The notes under the pieces were generated by a model. The model saw nothing but the letters and a program-made list of their open reading frames with translations. It made no database searches and was not told the DNA's origin. DNA of 64,000 nt from Fimbriimonadaceae bacterium. GTDB lineage: Bacteria > Armatimonadota > Fimbriimonadia > Fimbriimonadales > Fimbriimonadaceae. The stretch lies in NCBI GenBank assembly GCA_019638775.1, contig JAHBTD010000001.1, positions 744,001-808,000 of the forward strand, read 5' to 3'. Of this stretch, positions 17,962-58,852 are shown piece by piece (the first letter of the stretch is position 1; the number at the start of each line of letters is the position of its first letter). The position numbers and the translations under genes were made by a program.

Positions 17962-17981
17962 GGGGCCTAGGAGGAGGGGCT

Positions 17982-18023
17982 GGATTTTTGGATTTACGAT
18001 TTTAGATTTTGGATTTTGGATTG
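17982..18023. repeat. heptanucleotide tandem array, TGGATTT type
   Basis: Six consecutive 7-nt units close to TGGATTT are in perfect 7-nt phase with point differences between them. They lie in the non-coding gap upstream of rpmG. The same unit recurs, in either orientation, at 39611-39659, 58664-58691 and 58820-58847. Confidence 0.85.
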
Positions 18024-21143: not shown

Positions 21144-22187
21144 ATGAATTGCCCGAGCTGCGGCAAAGCCGTTCCAGGACAAGCTGCCTTTTGTATGCAC
21201 TGTGGCACCGTGATTGCCCAGCCTACCAAGCAGTTCCAGCCCGCTCCTGGTGTCCACACGCAAGCGATGCCCATGCCGATGCCAGCGCATTCCGGCCAGC
21301 CCAAACGATGGGCCGGAACAGCGGGCATTATCGTGGGTGTGCTCGTCGTTGCAGTGATGGCTTTTGCGCTGAACGCTTCGGGCATTTTGCGCCAATCGAG
21401 CCAGAAACAGGACCTCGAAACACTGAGCGCGCAGGGCTCCCATGCAAACCTCAGCACTTTGCAGGCATCGGGGTCTTCCATCGATTCCTCCGCTTTAGGC
21501 GCGGAGGGCAGCAGCCTCGACGGTTCTGCGCTGCGCGCCGAAGGAGCAAACGGGTCCAGTCCACTCATGCGGGCAGATGGCACTCCCGGAGGGCCGGTTC
21601 TTCCCTCTACCGATGACCGCAAGCTGATGCCCGATGACATCCGGCGTTGGTTAGAGCACCTTGAGCGCATCGAACAGAAGCGCACCGACATGACTCGGGA
21701 TCAGTTGGCAGCGGCGATGATGCAGATGACCGAGCTGCAGTTGGGTGGCTCGATGGCTGATCTTCAGCGGCTTTTGGATGACACCGATGAAGGCGTTACG
21801 ACTCAGGAGAACATCGATACCGCGAAGCAAGCCGTGAACACCTTTGAGGGGAATCGACGCAAGTGGAACCGCTTGAATGACGAATTCTTGGCTGTGTCGC
21901 CGCCTGCCGAGTGTGTGTCGCTGAGAAACGATTACGACAAGGTTTTGAGGGAGACGGGGGCAATGATCCTCGAAATCGTGAAGTCTGTTGAAAACGCCGA
22001 GTCGGATCGACAGGGAGCTTTGCGAACGCTGATGAAGCTGCAGGGCACGAGCGACTCGAGGATTGGGCGACCGGCCCGGAGTTCTGACCGCAAGCTCGGC
22101 GACATCTGCAGCAAATACGATACAGCAAAGTGGTTCAGCATCACGTCCGACGTTGGTGGCGGGATGCTCGGCAAAATCGGATTTTAA
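21144..22187 (+). CDS. zinc-ribbon membrane protein, function unknown
   Basis: The 347-residue protein starts with a double CxxC zinc ribbon (NCPSCGKAVPG...FCMHCGTVI). A Pro/Met-rich linker and one transmembrane helix near residues 55-75 follow. Then comes a low-complexity stretch repeating GSSxDSSALxAEGSS, and a helical C-terminal region with Cys. The layout (cytoplasmic zinc ribbon, one helix, extracytoplasmic part) is common in uncharacterised bacterial proteins. No Shine-Dalgarno is obvious. It is followed by the SprT-like gene after 3 bases. Confidence 0.75.
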   Translation: MNCPSCGKAVPGQAAFCMHCGTVIAQPTKQFQPAPGVHTQAMPMPMPAHSGQPKRWAGTAGIIVGVLVVAVMAFALNASGILRQSSQKQDLETLSAQGSHANLSTLQASGSSIDSSALGAEGSSLDGSALRAEGANGSSPLMRADGTPGGPVLPSTDDRKLMPDDIRRWLEHLERIEQKRTDMTRDQLAAAMMQMTELQLGGSMADLQRLLDDTDEGVTTQENIDTAKQAVNTFEGNRRKWNRLNDEFLAVSPPAECVSLRNDYDKVLRETGAMILEIVKSVENAESDRQGALRTLMKLQGTSDSRIGRPARSSDRKLGDICSKYDTAKWFSITSDVGGGMLGKIGF

Positions 22188-22190
22188 ACA

Positions 22191-22754
22191 ATGCCCGTGC
22201 GCAAACTCTTGAGTCGATTGGTGAAGGCTCCGGAAAAGAGCGCCCAGTTATCCCTCGATCTTGACTCGCGTGAAGAGCCGGAAGGCATCGAAGAGTATGC
22301 GGTCTATCTGCTCGACCGTCTTTGCGCTGAGTTTCCAATGGGCTATCGACCCACCGTTGCTTGGAAGAAGCTGCGGGTGACCGCCGGCCTTGCCCACACC
22401 TCTGAAGGAAAGATTAGTCTCAGCTCCATCCTGCTTGATTCGCTGGAGAAGGTCGAGCGCACCCTGAAGCACGAATACGCGCATCTTCTTGCCGTCGCAC
22501 GGCACGGACGACGCGCCACTGGGCATGGCAAGGCGTGGCGACAGGCCATGTCTGACTTGGGGGAAGCGCCCGAAATCTACCATCGGTATCCGGCAAAGCG
22601 AAATCAAAGCCGTCAGCGCGTGGGCTATGTTTGCGGCAAGTGCGGCATTACGATTGTGCGCAAGCGAAAGCTGCCGGGGCGTCGGAAGTACCTGCACGCC
22701 AAATGCGGTGGGGTTGTCAAGTTTGCGTGGGCCGAGAAGATGGAAGACCAGTAG
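22191..22754 (+). CDS. SprT-like zinc-dependent protein
   Basis: The 187-residue protein has the SprT-like metalloprotease site LKHEYAHLLAVARHG with a further His in GHGKAWRQAM. A C-terminal zinc ribbon has YVCGKCGITIVRKRK and HAKCGG. This matches the SprT-like family, related to the eukaryotic DNA-protein crosslink protease Spartan, but the bacterial function is not settled. It is tightly coupled to the upstream zinc-ribbon gene. Confidence 0.85.
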   Translation: MPVRKLLSRLVKAPEKSAQLSLDLDSREEPEGIEEYAVYLLDRLCAEFPMGYRPTVAWKKLRVTAGLAHTSEGKISLSSILLDSLEKVERTLKHEYAHLLAVARHGRRATGHGKAWRQAMSDLGEAPEIYHRYPAKRNQSRQRVGYVCGKCGITIVRKRKLPGRRKYLHAKCGGVVKFAWAEKMEDQ

Positions 22755-22831
22755 TCGCTGGCTCCTTGTCATCGTCTGCTCCCCTTTGTGCCGAGTTGAA
22801 GCCGGTGTCGCCATGTGTCAGCATAAGTGCG

Positions 22832-24382
22832 ATGGGCGAACATCCTATCTGTCCGTGGATTTGCAACGCCGAAGAATCCCGCGAGCTTGATCGACGAGCG
22901 CGGGATGAGTTTGGCATTCCTGTACAAACGCTGATGGAACGAGCAGGGCAAGCCGTCTTTGAAGCATTGCGGGAGATGGTGCCGCCAAGAAGCAAGATCG
23001 TTTTCGTTTGCGGCAAGGGCAACAACGGTGGCGATGGACTTGTCGCTGCTCGTCTGGCATACGGAGCGGATTTCGAGGTTGTCTGCCTTGTGGCTGCCAG
23101 TCAGAAAGAACTCAGCAAAGATGCACACGAGCAATGCGATACGGCAATTGAGATTGGAGTCCAACCCATCTTCGTCGATGACCCTATTTATCGCCCCCAT
23201 CTTCTCAAGCTCAGGGAAGCAAGCCTGATCGTGGACGCACTCCTAGGCACAGGTGCGAGAGGCAACATCGAGGGGATTCTGCTTGATGCGATTTTCGCGA
23301 TCAACGAATCGGGTGTGCCTGTGCTTTCGGTGGACATCCCTTCGGGCATCGATTGCGATACGGGCCAGAGTCTTGGAGTGAACGTTCGCGCGAAGCGGAC
23401 GGTGACTTTTGGAACCCCAAAGCCGTTTCTCTTTCAGAACGTTGGGGCCGAGGAGAGCGGTATTTGGGATGTCGCAGACATTGGATTTCCGCCTGCGCTT
23501 CTTCATGAACCCAGAAGTTCACGAACTGTCGAGCGGCAATGGGTCGGTGAGAGACTTCCATCGCGAGGCAGAAACAGCCACAAGGGTGCGAATGGATCTG
23601 TCCTGATTGTTGCTGGCAGCCCGCGCATGCCGGGGGCAGCAACGCTTGCCGCGACGGCGGCTTATCGCGCGGGCGCGGGTTTAGTCACGGTCGCGGCGAT
23701 GTCATCGGTCTGCGAGTCGGTAGCTAAGCACCTCCCCGAAGCGATCCTTCTCCCCTTGCCTGAAATGCGCGGCGCGGTCTCGCCGGAGGCGGTTTCGGTT
23801 GTGATGGACGAGACTCGGAAGTACGACAGCGCGGTCTTCGGGCCTGGGCTTTCGATGACCCAGACGGTTCGGCTCTTCCAAAGCGATCTTTGGAAATATT
23901 GGGAGGTTCCGTCTGTAATCGATGCCGACGCGCTCAATGCGGTGAGCGTGGGCGTCAAACTGCCCAAAGCTCCCTGTGTCCTGACGCCGCACCCTGGAGA
24001 GATGGGCCGCATGATGTCGGTGTCGGCTACTGAGATACAGGCTGCACGCTTTGCGTTTGTGAGGCAGGCTGCTAAGCAGTTTGAGAAAACCGTGCTTCTG
24101 AAGGGGGCTTACAGCTTAGTTGCGGAGGGGGATGAGCCCACATTTGTCAACACCACAGGCAATCCAGGAATGGCGGTTGCGGGCATGGGCGATGTTCTGA
24201 GCGGAGTGATCGCTACCCTGCTCGCGCAAGGGTTATCGAGCTACGAGGCAGCGGTGTGCGGCATGTATTGGCACGGGCTTGCGGGCGATTTATGCGCGAG
24301 ACAGATCGGGGCAATTGGCTACACGGCGTCAGAAGTCGCAGACGCTTTGCCCAAAGCCCGTGCTACCATTACATCAACGTGA
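22832..24382 (+). CDS. nnrDE: bifunctional NAD(P)HX epimerase and ADP-dependent NAD(P)HX dehydratase
   Basis: The 516-residue protein joins NnrE (about residues 1-215; GKGNNGGDGLVAARL, VDIPSGIDCDTG) to NnrD (from about 230; NSHKGANGSVLIVAGSPRM, GNPGMAVAGMGDVLSGVIA). It repairs hydrated NADH and NADPH. The ATG at 22832 (MGEHPICPW) is preferred to 22631, which lies inside the SprT-like gene. The stop overlaps the GTG of the next gene. Confidence 0.94.
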   Translation: MGEHPICPWICNAEESRELDRRARDEFGIPVQTLMERAGQAVFEALREMVPPRSKIVFVCGKGNNGGDGLVAARLAYGADFEVVCLVAASQKELSKDAHEQCDTAIEIGVQPIFVDDPIYRPHLLKLREASLIVDALLGTGARGNIEGILLDAIFAINESGVPVLSVDIPSGIDCDTGQSLGVNVRAKRTVTFGTPKPFLFQNVGAEESGIWDVADIGFPPALLHEPRSSRTVERQWVGERLPSRGRNSHKGANGSVLIVAGSPRMPGAATLAATAAYRAGAGLVTVAAMSSVCESVAKHLPEAILLPLPEMRGAVSPEAVSVVMDETRKYDSAVFGPGLSMTQTVRLFQSDLWKYWEVPSVIDADALNAVSVGVKLPKAPCVLTPHPGEMGRMMSVSATEIQAARFAFVRQAAKQFEKTVLLKGAYSLVAEGDEPTFVNTTGNPGMAVAGMGDVLSGVIATLLAQGLSSYEAAVCGMYWHGLAGDLCARQIGAIGYTASEVADALPKARATITST

Positions 24383-25641
24383 GACTCCCCGTAATCCTGA
24401 CAGTGCTGTTTGGCCTTTCTGTTTGCGCCTTCGCTCAAACCACGATCAAGCTCACGATGCCTACTCCTGGGCATCGGATGGTTTGGGTGAGTGAGACGCC
24501 ACCCACTGGCGAACCGACCGATTCGTTGAGCTTTAGCGGTACTGAGTTTGAGATGAAGGCCTCTTCGACTGGGCCTGAGACGAAGCTTTGGGTCCTTGAC
24601 GAAGAGACCAACAACATCGCCGCGAAGAAGCTAACCGAACTTGGCTCGAAGTGGGAGATCAAGCCGGAAGACTTCACGCTTCTTGGCCTTGTAACGATTC
24701 GCATCGAACACAAGGGGGAACGGGTGGAATCGGCATCGGTGAAGATTGCAGACGGCGCAAGGGGTATCGACCAGATTTTGGATTCTGGGAGCAATGGGCA
24801 GATCGTTGTTTATGGGCTTATGCCGGGGACCTTGAAAGCTGCTGTCACTTACAAGTCGGGCGATAAAACGATGGACCCGCTCAAGCAATCGTTTGACATT
24901 GCTCTGAAACGGTCAAAGCCGGAAGTGACCCTGGTGGTCTCCATTAGCGATCCCGTCACCACAATCAAGCCTGATGCGACAGGTGGCGCGAAGACCGGAG
25001 GCGGTGGAGAAAAGCCGGACGAGGGCAAGGACACCAGCAGCCCCATCGGCAAACTCGTTATCTATCTGATGGTGCTTGCAGGGGCAGTGGTAGCTATCTT
25101 CTTTGTCCTGAAGTGGTTCAAGAACAACCCGACGCTTGTTCAAAGCAAGCTTGACCAGCTTGGTGTCTCGACTCCAAAAGGTGGCGATCCGAGCATGGAC
25201 CCAGCCGCCCAGGTGCAAGCGCCGACTCCGCTTGTTCCGCCACCACCGCAAAAGATCGTGCTTGACGATGGCGACCCGAGTCTGGGAGCCCCCCTCCCCC
25301 CGACCTCTGCTTCCTCTTCAACAGCGGGATCGCCCATCGTTCAGGGCGGAGCGCCGATCTTCGACCCTAGGCTTGTGGGTGAAAACGGACAGCTTTTCAC
25401 GATCACCGATGGAGAGTTCACCGTCGGGCGTGAGGGAGCCCACGCGGTGCTTCTTGCCGGTGAATCTACGGTATCTCGGAATCATGCCGAGATTACATGT
25501 AGCGGACAGCGCATCACGGTGAAGGACACGGGAAGTACGAACGGCACGTTTGTGAACGGCGTCCAACTTCATGACGAAGTTGAACTAAAACCGGGTGACT
25601 CTGTGCAGTTTGGCTCGGTACGTTTCCGATTCGAAGTATAG
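24379..25641 (+). CDS. secreted/membrane FHA-domain protein
   Basis: The 420-residue protein begins at a GTG overlapping nnrDE, with signal sequence VILTVLFGLSVCAFAQ. An extracytoplasmic domain of about 200 residues is followed by a Gly-rich linker and a transmembrane helix (LVIYLMVLAGAVVAIFFVLKWF). A Pro-rich linker and a canonical FHA domain end the protein: VGREGAHAV, STVSRNHAEI, GSTNGTFVNG. FHA domains bind phosphothreonine, so the C terminus should be cytoplasmic. The extracytoplasmic part has no assigned role. It begins the FHA/FHA/VWA run. Confidence 0.88.
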   Translation: MRLPVILTVLFGLSVCAFAQTTIKLTMPTPGHRMVWVSETPPTGEPTDSLSFSGTEFEMKASSTGPETKLWVLDEETNNIAAKKLTELGSKWEIKPEDFTLLGLVTIRIEHKGERVESASVKIADGARGIDQILDSGSNGQIVVYGLMPGTLKAAVTYKSGDKTMDPLKQSFDIALKRSKPEVTLVVSISDPVTTIKPDATGGAKTGGGGEKPDEGKDTSSPIGKLVIYLMVLAGAVVAIFFVLKWFKNNPTLVQSKLDQLGVSTPKGGDPSMDPAAQVQAPTPLVPPPPQKIVLDDGDPSLGAPLPPTSASSSTAGSPIVQGGAPIFDPRLVGENGQLFTITDGEFTVGREGAHAVLLAGESTVSRNHAEITCSGQRITVKDTGSTNGTFVNGVQLHDEVELKPGDSVQFGSVRFRFEV

Positions 25642-25643
25642 CC

Positions 25644-27050
25644 ATGAGGCAGATCTTCTTTAAGGCGTTCATAGCGGCAGTCGGCGGCCTCATCGCGTGG
25701 ATGATTTGGGAGCCCCAGTTCCCTGCGTCTGCAGCAGATAAGGGGGCGTGGGCTCAGAATGAACGCTGGCTGATGCTTACTCTCGGCGTTCTCGTGGGCT
25801 TTGCCCTGGGAGCGACCAATGGCTGGGCTCAAGGCAGCAAAACGCACCTTATTCGCATGGGCCTCCTGGGTGCGCTTTGCGGAGCAGTAGCAGCGGTGCT
25901 TGGGCACAGCATTGCAGGGGCCGTCTACGCCACCACACCCGACCAGTTTGTCGTACGCATGCTAACCCGCGCGGTGGCCCTGAGTCTGCTTGGCGCGTGC
26001 ATCGGCGCGGGAGTTGGGCTTGCGGGAGCGACGGGTAGACGCATTGTCGTTGGCGTTCTTGGTGGGCTTATCGGGGGCGCAATCGCGGGAATTCTGTTTG
26101 ATCCTTTGGCGCTTCTCCTTGGCGACTTCATCGTGCAGATTAAAGGCGGCACCGAAAGGGTCGTCGATGGCGTCACGCAGCGGACAACCGAGACGGGCAT
26201 CGTCCCACGTGCGCTTTACTCCATTCTGATGCCCTTGTTTATCGGGCTCTTTATGGGCGTTCTCGACCGGGTGGTGAGAACGGCTTGGCTACGGCTGAAC
26301 CTTGGGCGCAATGAGGGGAAAGAGTGGGTGGTGGACGCTCAGCGCACCTATATCGGGCGCAGTGAGGGCGCACATGTGCCGCTTTTTGGCGACTCAAACA
26401 TCGGACCGCTCCACGCCTGCATCGCCAAGGTCGGCGACAACTACATTTTGATGGATTCGGGGACTCCGTTGGGGACTTTCTTGAACGGTCAAAAGGTCAC
26501 CCAAGCCCCGCTCTTCGACGGAGCCCAAATCCAAGTTGGGCAAAACGTGCTCATTTTTCAGCTTCGGGCGGGTTCGGCTCCTCAGCGAGCTTCTGAGCAG
26601 TACCGATCACAGGCCGCCTACAATCCGGCACATGGGCAGCAACCTGCACCAATGCCACAACCCGTGGGGCAGCCGGGGTCGATCTTTGGCAACCAACCCA
26701 CGAGCCAACCGACCATGATGCAGCCAGGCCCGCAAAACGCAACCCAAGTGGCCCCCGGGCAACCCATGACGCCGACCCTTGTGGCGATCTCGGGACCGCT
26801 GCTGGGAAATCGCTTCCCCATTGGGCAGATGATTGAAGCAGGCAGAGAAGCCGCAGGCATCGGACTGAGCTTCGACACCATGGCATCACGCAAGCATGCG
26901 ACCTTTTCGTTTACGCCAAATGGGGTCGTTGTCACCGATCTTGGCAGTACGAACGGAACGTTCGTCAACGATCAACGTATTCAACAGCAAGCAACGATCC
27001 GACCTGGCGATACCGTCAGAATAGGTGTTACCACCTTCCGACTTGAATGA
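25644..27050 (+). CDS. polytopic membrane protein with two FHA domains
   Basis: The 468-residue protein has about five hydrophobic helices in its first 210 residues, rich in Gly and Ala. FHA domain 1 follows (TYIGRSEGAHV to GTFLNGQKV), then a Pro/Gln-rich linker (PMPQPVGQPGS), then FHA domain 2 (AGREAAGIGLSF, MASRKHATF, GSTNGTFVND). In domain 1 the usual S-x-x-H is GPLH and the STNG loop is TPLG, so phosphothreonine binding there may be lost. Domain 2 looks competent. It begins 2 bases after the previous gene. Confidence 0.88.
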   Translation: MRQIFFKAFIAAVGGLIAWMIWEPQFPASAADKGAWAQNERWLMLTLGVLVGFALGATNGWAQGSKTHLIRMGLLGALCGAVAAVLGHSIAGAVYATTPDQFVVRMLTRAVALSLLGACIGAGVGLAGATGRRIVVGVLGGLIGGAIAGILFDPLALLLGDFIVQIKGGTERVVDGVTQRTTETGIVPRALYSILMPLFIGLFMGVLDRVVRTAWLRLNLGRNEGKEWVVDAQRTYIGRSEGAHVPLFGDSNIGPLHACIAKVGDNYILMDSGTPLGTFLNGQKVTQAPLFDGAQIQVGQNVLIFQLRAGSAPQRASEQYRSQAAYNPAHGQQPAPMPQPVGQPGSIFGNQPTSQPTMMQPGPQNATQVAPGQPMTPTLVAISGPLLGNRFPIGQMIEAGREAAGIGLSFDTMASRKHATFSFTPNGVVVTDLGSTNGTFVNDQRIQQQATIRPGDTVRIGVTTFRLE

Positions 27051-27063
27051 GGCAAACCCATCC

Positions 27064-28500
27064 ATGAACTCCGATCCGAACAAAACCGTTATTGGCTCCG
27101 TGCCCAGCTACGGCGACCCGATGAAGACGCAAGCCATGCCGTCGTTCGACCCGAACAAGACGGCGATTGGCGCTGCACCCACGGCGTTTGACCCCAACCG
27201 TACCGCTGCGATGGGCAGCACCGTCGGTGGACTTGCGCCTGGACAAAAGGCGCTGACGGTTACAGTAACGCCAAGCCGCACCGCCACCATGGCAAACGGA
27301 CCGGCGCGCGAGCAGTTTTTGGTCGAGTTCATTACACCCGGCGATCCTGGGCAAGCGCTCGGTTACTCCTCAGGCGCACGAACACCGATGAACCTTTGCC
27401 TCGTCATCGACCGTTCGGGCTCGATGGAGGGGACGCCGCTGGAGTACGTCAAGCAGGCGTGTAACTTTGTCGTCGACCTCTTGGGGCCGGACGATATCCT
27501 CAGCATTGTCACCTTTGAGGAGACAGTGGATGTGCTGATGCCTCCGCAGCGCGTGACCCAAAAGCAGCCCGTCAAAGAGGGAATTTCGCGCCTGCAGGCC
27601 GGAAACACCACCAACCTTTACGATGGCCTTGCCCTTGCCGTGCAGCAAGTGCTTCAGGTTCAAGACCCTGGTCGGGCAACGCGCTTGGTCGTCCTCACGG
27701 ACGGTGACCCGACCGCCGGGATTAAGGATTTTCAATCGCTGGTTTCCCATGCTGCTGAGATCAAGAATCGGGGCGTAACGGTTACGTTCCTTGGGTTTGG
27801 ACCGGACTACAACGAAGAGTTGATTGCCTCGATGGCGAAGAAGGCAGGCGGAAACTATTACTACATCCCGAGACCGGAACTGATCCCTGAGATCTTCCGC
27901 ACGGAGCTTGAAAAGCTGATGACGGTGGTTGCGCGCAACCTCAAACTCGACTTCAAGCTCGCGAGATGGGTGAAGATGCGCTCGACGCAGCCGCAGCCCG
28001 TCGGCGCTGGCGACAGGGACTATTCCTTGCAGATGGTGGATATTGAGCGTGGGACGACCATGCAGCAAGTCATCGACCTGGAGTTTCCAAACCACCCACT
28101 TGGGCACTATCGCGCGGCGGGCGGAAAGCTGACCTATGACGACTGCCTTACCGGACGGACGGAAACCATCGACATTGATCTCGTCATGGAGTTCACGGCT
28201 GACGCGGCTCGCTATGGCGCTCCGGTGCATGCGCGAGTGCGTCAAGCGGCGGACATTCAGGCCGCATCGCGCGTCGTTGAAAAGACGATCATGGGCTTGA
28301 AGACCGGGCAGATTACGGCGATGGGCGCGGTTTCCGAGCTGCAAAAGACGCAGATGCTCTTGCTCAACGAGGGCCGTACTGCCGAAGCTCAAGAGGTTAC
28401 GATGGCGCTTAGGGCAATCCAGTCGGGCGATACCGGCGGAGCCGAGAAGACGCTGATTGGGACGATGTTGAACCTGGATCAGGGCAAGAAGAGTAATTAG
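27064..28500 (+). CDS. von Willebrand factor A domain protein with DPNKT motifs
   Basis: The 478-residue soluble protein has a VWA domain with the metal site DRSGS (residues 116-120) and TDGDPTAG near 212. A C-terminal region resembles the beta-sandwich and helical part of CoxE/inter-alpha-trypsin-like VWA proteins. The first 50 residues carry four motifs DPNKT, DPMKT, DPNKT and DPNRT, with Thr at 8, 22, 33 and 47. They precede the VWA domain and are good candidate phosphothreonine targets for the FHA proteins encoded just upstream. I chose ATG 27064 because it follows the previous stop by 13 bases. Confidence 0.9.
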   Translation: MNSDPNKTVIGSVPSYGDPMKTQAMPSFDPNKTAIGAAPTAFDPNRTAAMGSTVGGLAPGQKALTVTVTPSRTATMANGPAREQFLVEFITPGDPGQALGYSSGARTPMNLCLVIDRSGSMEGTPLEYVKQACNFVVDLLGPDDILSIVTFEETVDVLMPPQRVTQKQPVKEGISRLQAGNTTNLYDGLALAVQQVLQVQDPGRATRLVVLTDGDPTAGIKDFQSLVSHAAEIKNRGVTVTFLGFGPDYNEELIASMAKKAGGNYYYIPRPELIPEIFRTELEKLMTVVARNLKLDFKLARWVKMRSTQPQPVGAGDRDYSLQMVDIERGTTMQQVIDLEFPNHPLGHYRAAGGKLTYDDCLTGRTETIDIDLVMEFTADAARYGAPVHARVRQAADIQAASRVVEKTIMGLKTGQITAMGAVSELQKTQMLLLNEGRTAEAQEVTMALRAIQSGDTGGAEKTLIGTMLNLDQGKKSN

Positions 28501-28501
28501 G

Positions 28502-28697
28502 GATCGGAGATCGGAGATCGGAGATCGGTGATCGGCTATCGGCTATCGGCTATCAGCTATCGGCTATCAGCAATCAGCTATCGGCTATCGGCTATCGGCT
28601 ATCAGCTATCAGCGATCAGCAATCAGCCAGCGGCTTTCGGCAATCTACAATCCACAATCACCAATCTACAATCCACAATCCACAATCACCGATCCCT
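28502..28697. repeat. 28-unit heptanucleotide array filling a convergent intergenic gap
   Basis: Every 7 nt from 28502 the sequence repeats a degenerate unit centred on ATC: GATCGGA four times, then TATCGGC and TATCAGC variants, then AATCTAC, AATCCAC and AATCACC. The phase is kept exactly for 28 units. It starts one base after the VWA stop and ends on the stop codon of the convergent minus-strand gene. Confidence 0.93.
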
Positions 28698-29615: not shown

Positions 29616-29639
29616 CTGTAAATTCTACCGAATCTACAG
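29616..29639 (-). other. hairpin over the stop codon of the EnvC-like gene
   Basis: A 10-bp stem (29616-29625 with 29630-29639, one G-T pair, 4-nt loop) covers the TAG of the minus-strand peptidase gene. No T-run follows on that strand, so it may protect the mRNA end but is not a standard terminator. Confidence 0.35.
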
Positions 29640-30800
29640 CCAGCCTGCCGGATTCACGGGCTTTCCGTTCACCCGAACCTCGAAATGGAGGTGGGGACCG
29701 GTGGCAAGTCCGGTTGAGCCTACTGCCGCGATCTTCTCTCCGCGAGAGACCTTCTGGCCAGCTTTCACATACACCTTCGAGCAGTGTCCATAGAGGGTCG
29801 AGATGTTGCCGCCGTGGTCGATGACGACCATGTTTCCGTAGCCGTTTGAGTATTGAGAGGTGATGACAACGCCGTCGGCGGCGGCTTTGATGGGGGTGCC
29901 ACTCTTTGCGCCGTAGTCGATCCCGGCATGAAGACGATTACGCTTTAGGATGGGGTGATGCCTCATCCCATAGCCGCTCGTCACACGTCCGGCGACGGGG
30001 CTGGAGAACTTGCCTTTGAACGGTTGAAGGTTATTGGTGCGTCCTGAGGAGTTGTTGTAAGCGTTGATCTGAGCGGTGATTGAAGCGGCTTCGGCATCAA
30101 GCTGCCGAACCAGCTTTTCGAGGTCTTGCTGCTTGTCGCGCAGCTCCCCAAGCACGTACGCCTTGTCGTTCCTCGCCGACTTAAGATCGACCTGTTGGCT
30201 CTCTTGTCGACTCTTGAGATCGCGGACTTCGACGACCAACTGGTCTTGGCGCTGCTTCTTCTTGGTGATGCTGGCCTGAAGGTCTTTGTAGTCTTCAAAC
30301 AGTCGGCGGTCGGCGGCGGCGATGCGTTTGATCGTGTAGCTGCGCGAGGCAAAGTCGCCGAAGTTTTTAGCTTTGGCGAGTACGGATACGGCGGCGGCAT
30401 CGCCGTGCATATACATCCACTTCAGCCTTGACCGGAGCTTCTCTTTGGTGTTGCCCAGTTCGACGGTGGCTTGCTCAAGCTCCTTTTTCAGTCGTGCCTG
30501 CTCAGAAATCCCCTTGTTCAGAGAGTTGACGGTGTAGGAAAGGTCGTCCTCAAGCTTGCCCAGGCGATTATCGATCTGGTTGATGTCTCCACGAACCGCC
30601 CGGACGGCTTTGCGCGTTCGGTTGAGCTCACGGCTTGCTTCGGTGCGTTTGTTCTCCAGCCGGTTGAGATCGTTCTTGAGTTCGCCTTCGGATGCGCTGG
30701 GCGTACTTTTTGTTGGTGTAGGCTTTTGTTGGGCCGCGGCAATGGCGAGGAGAACGCCAACGAGGGCAAAAACGGTGAAGAGGAGGGTCAACCGTTTCAT
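29634..30800 (-). CDS. EnvC-like M23 (LytM) peptidase with coiled coil
   Basis: The 388-residue protein has a signal peptide (MKRLTLLFTVFALVGVLLAI). A long coiled coil runs from about residue 35 to 240, and a C-terminal LytM/M23 domain has RLHAGIDYGAKSG and GPHLHFEVRVNG. Because HxxxD and HLH are kept, it could be catalytic, unlike E. coli EnvC. It is translationally coupled to ftsX (ATGA), which matches FtsX-regulated peptidoglycan hydrolases. Confidence 0.92.
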   Translation of the reverse strand: MKRLTLLFTVFALVGVLLAIAAAQQKPTPTKSTPSASEGELKNDLNRLENKRTEASRELNRTRKAVRAVRGDINQIDNRLGKLEDDLSYTVNSLNKGISEQARLKKELEQATVELGNTKEKLRSRLKWMYMHGDAAAVSVLAKAKNFGDFASRSYTIKRIAAADRRLFEDYKDLQASITKKKQRQDQLVVEVRDLKSRQESQQVDLKSARNDKAYVLGELRDKQQDLEKLVRQLDAEAASITAQINAYNNSSGRTNNLQPFKGKFSSPVAGRVTSGYGMRHHPILKRNRLHAGIDYGAKSGTPIKAAADGVVITSQYSNGYGNMVVIDHGGNISTLYGHCSKVYVKAGQKVSRGEKIAAVGSTGLATGPHLHFEVRVNGKPVNPAGWL

Positions 30801-31672
30801 GCCGCACCTCTTTCAAGCTTCATCGGGCCCGCCACAGCCAAGGCAGAACAGATCAGCCCGTACAGTCCACCGCAGACCATGAGCACCGTTGCCATGGTTG
30901 CAAAGGGGAACGAAGCGGCTTCACCGAACTGGATTTCGGAGACCCTTGCGGCGATGAGATCATGGCAGGGCATGAGTATAAGGGTACCGATTAATCCTCC
31001 CACAAGTCCTTGGACCGCGCCCTCGATCAAGAAAGGAATCCGCACCATCAAGTAGGGCGCACCGACAAGCTGCATGATGCGGATCTCTCTCCGCCTTGCC
31101 ACGATGGTGAGCCGGATCGCGTTAAAAATGAGGACTCCGGCAGTCAGGACCATCAACGCGACGAGGGTAAATCCGAGCCATTTGATGGCGGTTTGGATAT
31201 TGGTTAGGAATCCTTGAACGTTTTCGTCGTAGGCGACATCTTGGAGCTCTTTCACCTTGTTCAATTCGGCTGCGACGGCTGGCCCTTGGGAGACATCGCT
31301 GAGGATGACCTTGTAGGAGTCGGGCAGGGGGTTCTCGATATCCTTGTAGGCCGTGCCAAGCTCCTTCTGCATCTTCTCCCAAGCGTGGTCTCGGGGCACC
31401 CAAGTAACCGACTTGACCCCTGGCATCTTGCGGAGCTTTTGGGCAGTGGCGGAGATGGCTTCCTTCTCGACGCCGTCTTGTAGGTACGCCCGAATCTCGA
31501 ATGTGCCCCCGATGCGCTTGGCGTATTCGTCGATCTTGATATAGCCGTAGCCTAAACCGCCCACCAGAAAGAGCGATACCGCGACGGTCGAAACGGCAGC
31601 AAACGTCATCCAACCGTTTCGGCGCAGGGCCATGGCGGCTTCTCCGATCAGGAATGCGATTCTATCCAGCAC
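30797..31672 (-). CDS. ftsX: cell division protein FtsX
   Basis: The 291-residue protein begins at a GTG at 31672 that overlaps the end of ftsE. It has one N-terminal helix, an extracytoplasmic domain with FEIRAYLQDGVEKE and KLRKMPGVKSVTWVP, and three C-terminal helices, as in FtsX. A longer upstream frame inside ftsE is rejected because its Pro/Arg-rich content is a shadow of ftsE. FtsX passes the ATPase signal to the extracytoplasmic hydrolase. Confidence 0.93.
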   Translation of the reverse strand: MLDRIAFLIGEAAMALRRNGWMTFAAVSTVAVSLFLVGGLGYGYIKIDEYAKRIGGTFEIRAYLQDGVEKEAISATAQKLRKMPGVKSVTWVPRDHAWEKMQKELGTAYKDIENPLPDSYKVILSDVSQGPAVAAELNKVKELQDVAYDENVQGFLTNIQTAIKWLGFTLVALMVLTAGVLIFNAIRLTIVARRREIRIMQLVGAPYLMVRIPFLIEGAVQGLVGGLIGTLILMPCHDLIAARVSEIQFGEAASFPFATMATVLMVCGGLYGLICSALAVAGPMKLERGAA

Positions 31673-32540
31673 TGCTTTCCTCCTCGGCTTCGGTTTGAGG
31701 AGCAGCTTCCACCGGAGGCTCGGGGTCGCCAACGACCACGGCTGTCGAATGCCCGTTAAACAGTTCGGATTGAGCGCCTTCTTCGGGGAGGCGAGCGGGT
31801 TCGCGCGGTGTCTTGGGGGTGGCCTCGGCAGGCTCGGCGGGCGGCACGACGGCCAAAAGTTGCTGCGAGGAGCCACGCGGGATGTCGTTTATCACTTTGC
31901 CGTGGTCCATCGTAACGATTCGCATGTCCATCTTCTCGACAACCATCATGTCGTGGGTTGCGACGATGACGGTGGTTCCGCGAAGATTGAGCTGTACCAA
32001 CAACTCCATGATCTCCCAACTGTGGGCAGGATCGAGGTTACCTGTGGGCTCGTCGGCGATGAGAAGTTTGGGGTTATTGATCAAAGCTCGCCCGATGGCA
32101 ACGCGCTGCTGCTCACCGCCGGAAAGCTCGTGGGGAAAGGCGTCGGCCCGGTGGCCTATGTTCACCATCTCCAGAATATCCGGCACTCGGCGACGGACCT
32201 CACGCTTGGTGGCCCCGATTGCGCGCATTGCGTAAGCGACGTTCTCCCAAACGCGCTTGCGCGGAAGGAGGGCAAAGTCTTGGGGAACAATCCCCATTTG
32301 ACGTCGGAGCGCGGGGATATCCCACTCGCTGACCTGCCGCAGATCGCGCCCATGGAAGAGGACTTGCCCCTTGGTTTCGCGAGTCTCGCGGGTGATGAGT
32401 TTGAGGATCGTGCTCTTCCCGGCGCCGGTTTTTCCCACCAGAAAGACAAACTCGCCGTCTTGAATCGTGATGTTGACGCCCCGAAGCCCAAACACGAGCT
32501 CCGAGAACTGCACTTCGACGTTCTTAAAGGCGATCGACAT
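31662..32540 (-). CDS. ftsE: cell division ATP-binding protein FtsE with long C-terminal extension
   Basis: The 292-residue ABC ATPase has Walker A GKTGAGKST, signature LSGGEQQRVAIGRAL and Walker B LLIADEPTG. The usual FtsE length is about 220-230. Here about 63 extra residues rich in Pro, Glu and Ala (from about residue 229, VPPAEPAEATPKTPREP) form a likely disordered tail. It starts the ftsE-ftsX-envC operon, divergent from mntR-like. Confidence 0.94.
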   Translation of the reverse strand: MSIAFKNVEVQFSELVFGLRGVNITIQDGEFVFLVGKTGAGKSTILKLITRETRETKGQVLFHGRDLRQVSEWDIPALRRQMGIVPQDFALLPRKRVWENVAYAMRAIGATKREVRRRVPDILEMVNIGHRADAFPHELSGGEQQRVAIGRALINNPKLLIADEPTGNLDPAHSWEIMELLVQLNLRGTTVIVATHDMMVVEKMDMRIVTMDHGKVINDIPRGSSQQLLAVVPPAEPAEATPKTPREPARLPEEGAQSELFNGHSTAVVVGDPEPPVEAAPQTEAEEESSAG

Positions 32541-39328: not shown

Positions 39329-39610
39329 ATAGCTAACAGTGGGAGGGGGAGGAGTGGTCACCCTCACCACTGTTCGCTTTGCTCACAGGTCCTCTCCCTC
39401 AAGGGAGAGGAGTTGGGCGAGTGGGTCTTTGCCGCTAGGAACGTGCAGCTAGGTGTTGGGAGTCAAAAAGCGGCGAGCACTTTTGCTCCCATGGTGTCGG
39501 GTTCTGTTCACAATCCTTGCCTCCTTACCCTTTACTGCCATAGCCCTCCCCTGCACCCCTGCCTCATCTTCGCAAGCTCACACAGAGGGAAAGTGACAAG
39601 GATCACAGCC
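39329..39610. repeat. gap with palindrome copy after tmk
   Basis: A short form of the dispersed palindrome lies at 39391-39410 (CCTCTCCC, TCAA loop, GGGAGAGG). The preceding 39363-39390 resembles, in reverse orientation, the stretch near 18140-18170. I see no gene here. Confidence 0.75.
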
Positions 39611-39659
39611 CCAAATCCCAAATCCCAAATCCCAAATCCAAAATCCAAAATCTAAAATC
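39611..39659. repeat. heptanucleotide tandem array, CCAAATC type
   Basis: Seven 7-nt units are in exact phase: CCAAATC four times, CAAAATC twice and TAAAATC. They are followed by a related TAAAACG. It is the reverse-complement type of the array at 17982 and sits just beyond the cheW terminator. Confidence 0.9.
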
Positions 39660-39660
39660 T

Positions 39661-39701
39661 AAAACGAAAACGCCCCACCCGACTCCATTGTCGGGCAGGG
39701 C
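39661..39701 (-). terminator. intrinsic terminator of cheW
   Basis: On the minus strand a 12-bp stem with two G-T pairs (39701-39690 with 39683-39672) around a 6-nt loop is followed by GTTTTCGTTTT. It lies 22 bases past the cheW stop. Confidence 0.85.
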
Positions 39702-58104: not shown

Positions 58105-58719
58105 TTATGGCCCGCTGAGGTAGTCGATCCGGATATCGAGTTCTCCGCCCGTGCGCTGCTCTTGGCGAACTATTCCTGTTCCCGGGGCAAACCAGGTGGT
58201 GACCTCCATCGACCTCTTGCCGTCGAGCACGAGCTGAAGCCTCGACCTCGTGGTTTCATACTCCCTGGCATCCAGTTTGAGTTTTTGGGCTTCGTGGGTG
58301 AGCCTGGCTTCAACCTTTACCGACCCCGACATCGGCCAAGATGCCGTTCCTTTCCAATCGATAGTGCGGCTGTCTGCGGCAAGGAGGGGAAGCGGGGGCG
58401 AATACGAGGTCCCGGCAAGACGGTCTGCGTACAGCACGCCGTTTTTCCACGCCATGCTGCTGCTGCCGAGCGGTCCCGTAAGCTCAACGCCTTGCGTGCC
58501 CGCAACGCCCACCTCTTTGTTGATCCGCAAAGGCTCCACATACTTGGCGAATTTTCCGCTTACGTTGTATTTCCACTCGGAGCCCACTTCGAGGGGCATA
58601 AGGTCAGACGATCCGCTGCGGTTGCAGCCTATGAGGAGGAAAAGCAGAAGGAGAGGAAATGCAATTTTGGATTTTGGATTTTGGATTTTGGATTCTCTGG
58701 GTGGAGAGGTCAAACGCAC
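58105..58719 (-). CDS. lipoprotein of unknown function, start region disturbed by a repeat
   Basis: The frame encodes a lipoprotein signal (FPLLLLFLLIGC) and about 160 residues of a beta-rich lipoprotein (LPLEV-like EVGSEWKYNVSGKFAK). No ATG lies near the signal. The nearest reasonable start is GTG at 58719 (VRLTSPPRE), so the N-terminal region crosses the repeat with the KIQNPKS-type sequence encoded by heptamers. The frame is open further, to 58845. True start uncertain. Confidence 0.65.
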   Translation of the reverse strand: MRLTSPPRESKIQNPKSKIAFPLLLLFLLIGCNRSGSSDLMPLEVGSEWKYNVSGKFAKYVEPLRINKEVGVAGTQGVELTGPLGSSSMAWKNGVLYADRLAGTSYSPPLPLLAADSRTIDWKGTASWPMSGSVKVEARLTHEAQKLKLDAREYETTRSRLQLVLDGKRSMEVTTWFAPGTGIVRQEQRTGGELDIRIDYLSGP

Positions 58720-58849
58720 GTGTTCGCGTCTTTGCCGAGGAGCAAAGAAAGTCAAGCCGAGGCCGATCCTCGGCCTGAATGCGGAAACTTCGCATTGCCG
58801 TCGCATCAACCGTCGCCAATCCAAAATCCAAAATCTAAAATCCAAAATC
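58664..58849. repeat. inverted heptanucleotide arrays flanking a short segment
   Basis: Four ATTTTGG units (58664-58691) and four inverse CCAAAAT-type units (58820-58847) enclose about 128 bases. The arms are inverted repeats and could pair. The element lies between pcrA/uvrD and the minus-strand lipoprotein, and overlaps the lipoprotein frame's 5' region. Confidence 0.85.
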
Positions 58850-58852
58850 CCT

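Follow-up and report, generated by a model that had tools for sequence, protein, structure and literature searches.

We analyzed a 64,000-nucleotide stretch of the genome of a Fimbriimonadaceae bacterium (phylum Armatimonadota; GenBank assembly GCA_019638775.1, contig JAHBTD010000001.1, positions 744,001 to 808,000), which we will call the window. Three of its genes encode two membrane proteins with FHA domains (FHA1 and FHA2) and a protein with a von Willebrand factor A (vWA) domain (VWA). Protein sequences and structural models suggest that these genes probably supply the membrane readers and the effector of a phosphothreonine switch of six genes, which resembles the archaeal ArnAB system: a Ser/Thr kinase (STK) would write phosphothreonine tags, FHA domains would read them, and a PP2C phosphatase would reset them. 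The sixth member is ZFF, a soluble protein in which two FHA domains follow a zinc ribbon.

Threonine motifs in VWA

A sequence-only reading of the window had reported four DP-x-[KR]-T motifs near the N terminus of VWA. We confirmed these motifs within residues 1-60, with threonines at T8, T22, T33, and T47. When we shuffled these 60 residues, the mean was 0.0037 motifs, and more than one was never seen in 200,000 shuffles. Across 104 distinct N termini from VWA orthologs, there are 224 DPx[KR]T motifs, and shuffling predicts 0.39. The last position of DPx[KR]X is Thr at 228 of 230 sites and is never Ser. The sequence-only reading had made its proposal depend on the conservation of these threonines, and they are conserved.

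All four threonine codons are used at these sites, so the array did not arise by recent DNA duplication. In the same orthologs, the +1 position is mostly Gln, +2 is Ala or a hydrophobic residue, and +3 is Met or Gly. The number of copies ranges from 0 to 4, and the region is disordered in the predicted structure. FHA domains favor phosphothreonine (PMC6509490), and an array that uses Thr but never Ser fits their preference for phosphothreonine over phosphoserine. The array looks like a short linear motif that is under selection for phosphothreonine rather than phosphoserine.

A search of the genome for DPxxT gave 29 matches, and multi-copy arrays that are in frame were found only in VWA and ZFF. 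The single matches that we examined were in unrelated proteins or were out of frame.

FHA domains and membrane anchors

As the sequence-only reading had described them, FHA1 is a secreted or membrane FHA protein and FHA2 is a polytopic protein with two FHA domains (Table 1). The extracytoplasmic beta domains of FHA1 are modeled confidently, and its transmembrane helix is at about residues 226-244. A cleaved signal peptide with a single transmembrane helix behind it usually places the C-terminal part of a protein in the cytoplasm, so the FHA domain of FHA1 should be cytoplasmic. VWA has no segment that resembles a transmembrane helix.

An FHA domain contacts phosphothreonine through four residues (Arg, Ser, His, and Asn). 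All four are present in the FHA1 domain in each of the 62 orthologs that have sequence there, in the second FHA domain of FHA2 (FHA2b) in 74 of 74 orthologs, and in both FHA domains of ZFF (ZFFa and ZFFb) in essentially all orthologs. The first FHA domain of FHA2 (FHA2a) is different. Its contact Ser is kept in just 3 of 74 orthologs, with Ala, Pro, or Gly otherwise; also, Asn is not among the seven commonest residues at its position, which is hydrophobic in the orthologs. Because the Ser and Asn were lost, FHA2a probably has a structural role or is a dimer domain. Thus, the binding residues are intact in four of the five FHA domains. Of the three FHA domains encoded in the window, only that of FHA1 and FHA2b look competent as phosphothreonine readers, which qualifies the earlier view of the FHA proteins.

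We considered whether the linkers between the FHA domains of FHA2 might also carry tags. They contain [NQ]PT[MVQ][MA] motifs in many species, but these are too loose to count. A second membrane FHA protein, possibly similar to FHA2, is encoded outside the cluster at G000:C3:515 kb (L112:4335-5729; G000 is the genome that includes the window).

ZFF, the phosphatase, and the kinase

ZFF (300 residues; G000:C4:185138-186037) is the sole other protein with a multi-copy array in our genome-wide motif scan. It starts with MNDPGRTQMLSADPNRTQMGTAPSLDPNKTMMGT, followed by the zinc ribbon and the two FHA domains. Among ZFF orthologs, 32 of 43 have at least one copy of the motif, and D[PALMV]x[KR]X sites end in Thr in 66 of 68 cases. 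All four cysteines of the zinc ribbon are present in 46 of 46 orthologs, with the spacing of ArnA (CX2CX10CX2C), and 42 of 47 have the RanBP2-like Asn after the second Cys.

The sequence-only reading had stated that no kinase or phosphatase is encoded in the window. This is true of the window, but elsewhere the genome encodes three proteins with kinase folds and one PP2C_2 protein. The PP2C gene (G000:C4:186049-186876) is directly after ZFF. STK (G000:C3:271205-273028) is a membrane Ser/Thr kinase with one transmembrane segment, with TPR repeats behind it, and its HRD and DFG motifs are present in every ortholog that we read. As discussed below, this kinase and PP2C belong to the same ancestral cluster as the genes of the window; the set that was recognized earlier was incomplete, as it missed ZFF, PP2C, and the kinase as well as the relation to ArnA and ArnB.

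Two other observations concern these families. The N termini of PP2C (L110:6050-6877) and of its outgroup relatives share an E[IP]TA segment (EITAEY, EITAKL, EITAPM, or EPTAKF), which is a possible further threonine tag. Also, the gene at G000:C1:408 kb (L116:4387-6288, minus strand) encodes a membrane protein that has PASTA-like repeats and is apparently a pseudokinase, since its kinase fold lacks HRD and DFG.

Conservation across Armatimonadota

VWA had matches in 99 of the 101 genomes of the phylum that we searched. Most of these are full orthologs and some are weak matches only. To define orthologs, we required E < 1e-80 for VWA, E < 1e-20 for ZFF, E < 1e-45 for PP2C, and E < 1e-80 for STK; these cutoffs were set after we had seen the gap in scores. 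We also scanned contigs and considered the best 80 loci only. Nearly all of these are titled Armatimonadota; one (L177) is titled Methanoregulaceae archaeon, which is possibly a misnamed bin.

In deeper Armatimonadota, the genes are in the order FHA1-FHA2-VWA-ZFF-PP2C-kinase, all on one strand (L234, L235, L225, and L237). There is one extra small gene before the kinase in L234 and one extra gene between VWA and ZFF in L225, and the cluster in L237 (VWA-ZFF-PP2C-STK) is truncated at both ends. The coordinates of separate searches place VWA-ZFF-PP2C-STK together in four genomes (G091, G093, G094, and G099), with FHA1-FHA2 ahead of them in G093. In all, eight genomes of deeper Armatimonadota have VWA-ZFF-PP2C-kinase, and in four of these it also lies behind FHA1-FHA2. 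In G091, G093, G094, and G099, the clustered kinase is the best match to the C3 kinase of the window's genome. Of the three kinase-fold genes in that genome, the C3 kinase alone matches with E below 1e-40. The clustered kinase is orthologous to the one at G000:C3:271205-273028.

Other genomes are intermediate. Four (G062, G063, G090, and G095) keep VWA-ZFF-PP2C with the kinase elsewhere, and two (G089 and G100) have two pairs, VWA-ZFF and PP2C-kinase. The genome of the window has the most dispersed form, with the set split over three loci. The sequences and models show that FHA1, FHA2, VWA, ZFF, PP2C, and the kinase derive from one ancestral cluster.

The genes are also lost together. Six genomes from five lineages, all at least 93% complete, lack orthologs of VWA, ZFF, PP2C, and STK (G028, G047, G092, G096, G097, and G098). 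FHA2 is absent from four of these, and there is a weak partial match (29-31% identity) in G097 and G098. In near-complete genomes, the remaining absences concern one gene at a time and are scattered (G025, G038, G040, G069, G077, and G080), as draft gaps would give. G028 and G047 (genus g29, 1.5 Mb) belong to the same family and are small; the entire module has been lost from them, and they could be used as natural knock-outs.

The predicted fold of VWA resembles that of ArnB

In the AlphaFold2 model of VWA, the vWA domain is inserted in a beta-sandwich, and a C-terminal four-helix bundle follows. This is the three-part fold of ArnB. When we compared the model with solved structures by Foldseek, ArnB from the ArnAB complex ranked first (8s05; E = 2.5e-27, TM-score of 0.76 by target length). 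The next matches are a Catenulispora acidiphila protein (4FX5) and vWA2/ArnE, which is a paralog of ArnB; Sec23/24 is further down. A profile of 28 VWA orthologs also has ArnB as its best match by sequence in the PDB (2.5e-17), and the alignment extends across the vWA domain, the sandwich, and the bundle.

In Sulfolobus acidocaldarius, ArnA and ArnB form a phosphoswitch for motility, with the kinases ArnC and ArnD and the phosphatase PP2A (PMC6509490, PMC12852372, PMC7472852). The zinc ribbon of ArnA weakly holds unphosphorylated ArnB at the beta1-beta2 loop and the helix bundle; upon phosphorylation of the bundle, binding passes to the FHA domain (PMC12852372). In VWA, the array is directly before the first strand, so by analogy it would sit next to the expected site for the ribbon.

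Proposed mechanism and alternatives

We propose that STK phosphorylates the DPx[KR]T threonines that VWA and ZFF carry in their flexible N-terminal segments, and that the FHA domains of FHA1, FHA2b, and ZFF would bind the phosphorylated tags. With several equivalent tags, VWA and ZFF would be recruited to the membrane in a multivalent and graded way, by avidity. Unphosphorylated VWA and ZFF would be loosely paired via the zinc ribbon of ZFF, as ArnA and ArnB are, and PP2C would reset the state. The input is probably received by the ectodomain of FHA1, by the C-terminal TPR region of the kinase beyond the membrane, or by both, and the output would be whatever binds the metal ion-dependent adhesion site (MIDAS) face of VWA.

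That the threonines are phosphorylated and bound by FHA domains in a membrane-linked complex had been proposed by the sequence-only reading. Conservation supports this core proposal well: the threonines are nearly invariant and are never Ser, the copy number varies, the motif recurs in ZFF, and the genes cluster in outgroups. The earlier interpretation as a whole is partly supported. A bolder version, which we consider possible rather than probable, is that this is a phylum-wide bacterial counterpart of ArnAB, with multivalent phosphothreonine arrays on ZFF and on a vWA protein with the Sec23/24 core; governed by a single dedicated kinase/PP2C pair, these arrays would assemble into a graded scaffold on the two FHA anchors in the membrane. 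If so, bacteria would have a multivalent phosphothreonine-FHA assembly in which the number of tags tunes the response, and which possibly shares ancestry with archaeal ArnAB.

Several observations weigh against the proposed mechanism. The genes are unlinked in the lineage of the window, and the assignment of the kinase rests on orthology. VWA is just 16-18% identical to ArnB over the structural alignment, and the Pfam signature ArnB_C does not match VWA at E values up to 5. The phosphorylated sites of ArnB are in its C-terminal bundle and not at its N terminus. Also, 10 of the 104 VWA orthologs have no strict DPx[KR]T motif, although looser [KR]TQ motifs occur in several of the ten. Finally, we considered the linker of the kinase as a third carrier of tags, but the PTMGG of the kinase from the window's genome is not conserved in its orthologs.

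The array might instead act in cis or among soluble partners: ZFF's own FHA domains would bind the phosphorylated tails of ZFF (and VWA), in the manner of GarA/OdhI or DgcB, and FHA1 and FHA2 would have other ligands. ZFF does carry the array ahead of its FHA domains, and it directly adjoins VWA in outgroups. Also, PDB entries for DgcB and pOdhI describe an FHA domain bound to its own phosphorylated N-terminal tail. But the tightest linkage in the family of the window is FHA1-FHA2-VWA, and the phosphothreonine sites of FHA1 and FHA2b are complete in every ortholog that we read. We consider this alternative unlikely.

Somewhat less likely still is a switch that works through phosphorylation of T408 and T463 in the C-terminal bundle, as ArnB does, with the N-terminal array serving mainly for kinase docking or as a spacer. 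These sites (EKTIMG and EKTLIG; the latter is EKTL[IM]G across orthologs) resemble the array's form, [KR]T-x-[hydrophobic]-G, and their Thr and Gly are invariant in 28 of 28 aligned VWA orthologs from across the phylum, which is stricter than any single position of the array. Their domain is also the one in which ArnB is phosphorylated and bound by FHA (PMC6509490, PMC12852372). However, both sites lie inside well-predicted helices in the model; they may be true phosphosites or may be conserved for helix packing. A spacer would not explain selection for Thr against Ser in a disordered and otherwise variable segment, or why the motif recurs in ZFF. That the repeats have no role in phospho-signaling and are just a low-complexity expansion is very improbable. 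The region is disordered and the number of copies differs between species, as such an expansion would have it, but the consistent use of Thr and never Ser, with all four codons, argues otherwise, as do the recurrence in ZFF and the linkage with a kinase, PP2C, and four FHA domains that look competent.

Gene layout and neighbors

That FHA1, FHA2, and VWA are three coupled genes was also evident from the sequence and the list of open reading frames: all are on the plus strand, with gaps of 2 bases (FHA1-FHA2) and 13 bases (FHA2-VWA). The Pfam E-values are 3.8e-18 for the FHA domain of FHA1, 3.5e-27 for the two FHA stretches in FHA2, and 3.1e-22 for the vWA domain of VWA. The coordinates are given in Table 1.

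Table 1. Coordinates in the window of FHA1, FHA2, VWA, their parts, and the upstream gene
Feature	Position	Strand	Details
NAD(P)HX epimerase/dehydratase	22631..24382	+	Pfam YjeF_N and Carb_kinase; extent from the open reading frame, real start possibly further in
FHA1: signal peptide, extracytoplasmic beta domains (residues 21-190), one transmembrane helix, disordered linker, C-terminal FHA domain	24379..25641	+	
FHA domain of FHA1	25420..25614	+	Pfam; phosphothreonine-contact residues R351, S366, H369, N388
FHA2: five transmembrane-like segments, then two FHA domains	25644..27050	+	
FHA2a, degenerate FHA domain	26349..26540	+	
FHA2b, canonical FHA domain	26859..27026	+	R401, S415, H418, N437
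VWA: ArnB-like protein with N-terminal threonine motif array	27064..28500	+	
Disordered array of VWA, residues 1-60	27064..27243	+	Model confidence (pLDDT) about 40
Motif 1, DPNKT	27073..27087	+	Thr8 codon 27085-27087
Motif 2, DPMKT	27115..27129	+	Thr22 codon 27127-27129
Motif 3, DPNKT	27148..27162	+	Thr33 codon 27160-27162
Motif 4, DPNRT	27190..27204	+	Thr47 codon 27202-27204; aligned column is Thr in 27/28
vWA domain with complete MIDAS (DRSGS, T182/T183, D213)	27391..27897	+	Pfam, ortholog alignment
C-terminal four-helix bundle of VWA, with EKTIMG (T408) and EKTLIG (T463)	28231..28482	+	Alignment, model

The GTG start codon of FHA1 (at 24379) overlaps the stop codon (24380-24382) of the NAD(P)HX repair gene. 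This gene is a conserved upstream neighbor, at 64 of 120 orthologous loci, and is probably not part of the switch. SprT (22191-22754) is another recurrent upstream neighbor (34 of 120 loci), and a membrane protein with an N-terminal zinc ribbon is encoded three genes upstream of FHA1 (21144-22187, plus strand; 15 of 120 loci).

Directly downstream, on the opposite strand, are genes for an EnvC-like M23 peptidase, FtsX, and FtsE (29634-32540, minus strand). We considered FtsEX-EnvC as a functional partner, but it adjoins VWA at only two other loci, both distant (L236 and L074). Tandem repeats with 7-base units (ATCGGCT, GATCGGA, CAATCCA, AAATCCA, and others) begin directly after the stop codon of VWA (28502-28695), and more such repeats are in the window at 17981-18022, 39610-39664, 58664-58694, and 58818-58850. 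ATCGGCT arrays are scattered through the genome (55 matches), and a similar repeat is apparently in frame within mutS (L113, 6391-8997).

Comparison with known systems

Most of what is known about bacterial FHA-phosphothreonine signaling comes from a few model species and concerns single sites. Most of the Armatimonadota keep a whole set of putative writer, eraser, and readers, and the probable tag of the substrates can be read from the sequence alone. This makes the specificity of the kinase, the specificity of the FHA domains, and multivalency directly testable. We did not find a paper that describes the cluster in the literature that we searched, which did not include subscription journals.

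The cluster resembles ArnA-ArnB in several ways. VWA has the three-part fold of ArnB, with several Thr sites; its partner ZFF has a CX2CX10CX2C zinc ribbon and then FHA, which is the order in ArnA; the kinase is of the Hanks type, with a TPR-like region; and the genes for the vWA and zinc-FHA proteins are adjacent, here in outgroups, although they are split in the genome of the window. There are also differences. This system is bacterial; ArnAB controls the expression of the archaellum, which is not expected in bacteria (no search was aimed at it). The main cluster of threonines is an N-terminal DPx[KR]T array that both partners carry, whereas ArnB has its sites in the C-terminal bundle. ZFF has two FHA domains, the phosphatase is PP2C instead of PP2A, and VWA does not match ArnB_C in Pfam. 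Also, there are two extra FHA proteins in the membrane, which, unlike in the published ArnAB, would locate the phosphorylated state at the membrane. The sequences and models suggest that the cluster resembles ArnAB in its anatomy and probably in its working. We do not claim that it belongs to ArnAB, because ArnB_C is not matched and the function is a prediction from genes and models. A 2026 paper on ArnAB describes ArnB-fold proteins outside ArnAB as mostly not involved in multi-phosphorylation processes (PMC12852372). Our cluster would be a bacterial counter-example, and it bears on how ArnAB and the Sec23/24 core arose.

The threonine phosphorylation pathway of the type VI secretion system (PpkA, PppA, and Fha1) also has genomic links between a kinase, a phosphatase, an FHA protein, and a vWA domain. 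In that pathway the vWA domain is fused to the kinase (PMC1262709), whereas STK has a kinase domain, a transmembrane segment, and TPR repeats only, and VWA is separate and ArnB-like. The sheath gene VipB/TssC had no match in the genome, and a positive control was found. As in GarA/OdhI and DgcB, ZFF has a threonine tag in a flexible N-terminal tail before an FHA domain (and the closest match to the FHA domain of FHA1 is that of GarA). In contrast to those proteins, there are several tags, a zinc ribbon is added, and the same tag is on a separate vWA protein.

In the GAP1-N2 triads (PMC7159879), too, a kinase gene, a PP2C gene, and the gene for a stand-alone vWA protein are neighbors. Those are GTPase-centered conflict systems, and the part of that paper that we saw describes no FHA partner or threonine array for them. 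We noticed no GAP1-N2 GTPase here, and no search was aimed at it. The Catenulispora acidiphila protein 4FX5 shares the vWA, sandwich, and bundle fold with VWA. The vWA (YfbK-type) proteins from plasmids of Cyanobacteria and Deinococcus are about 29% identical to VWA; as candidates for sister systems, we examined five of these, and they had no FHA neighbor and no threonine array. The clustering of FHA, vWA, PP2C, and kinase genes is itself known from other systems, which have different architectures, and ArnAB is the closest known system.

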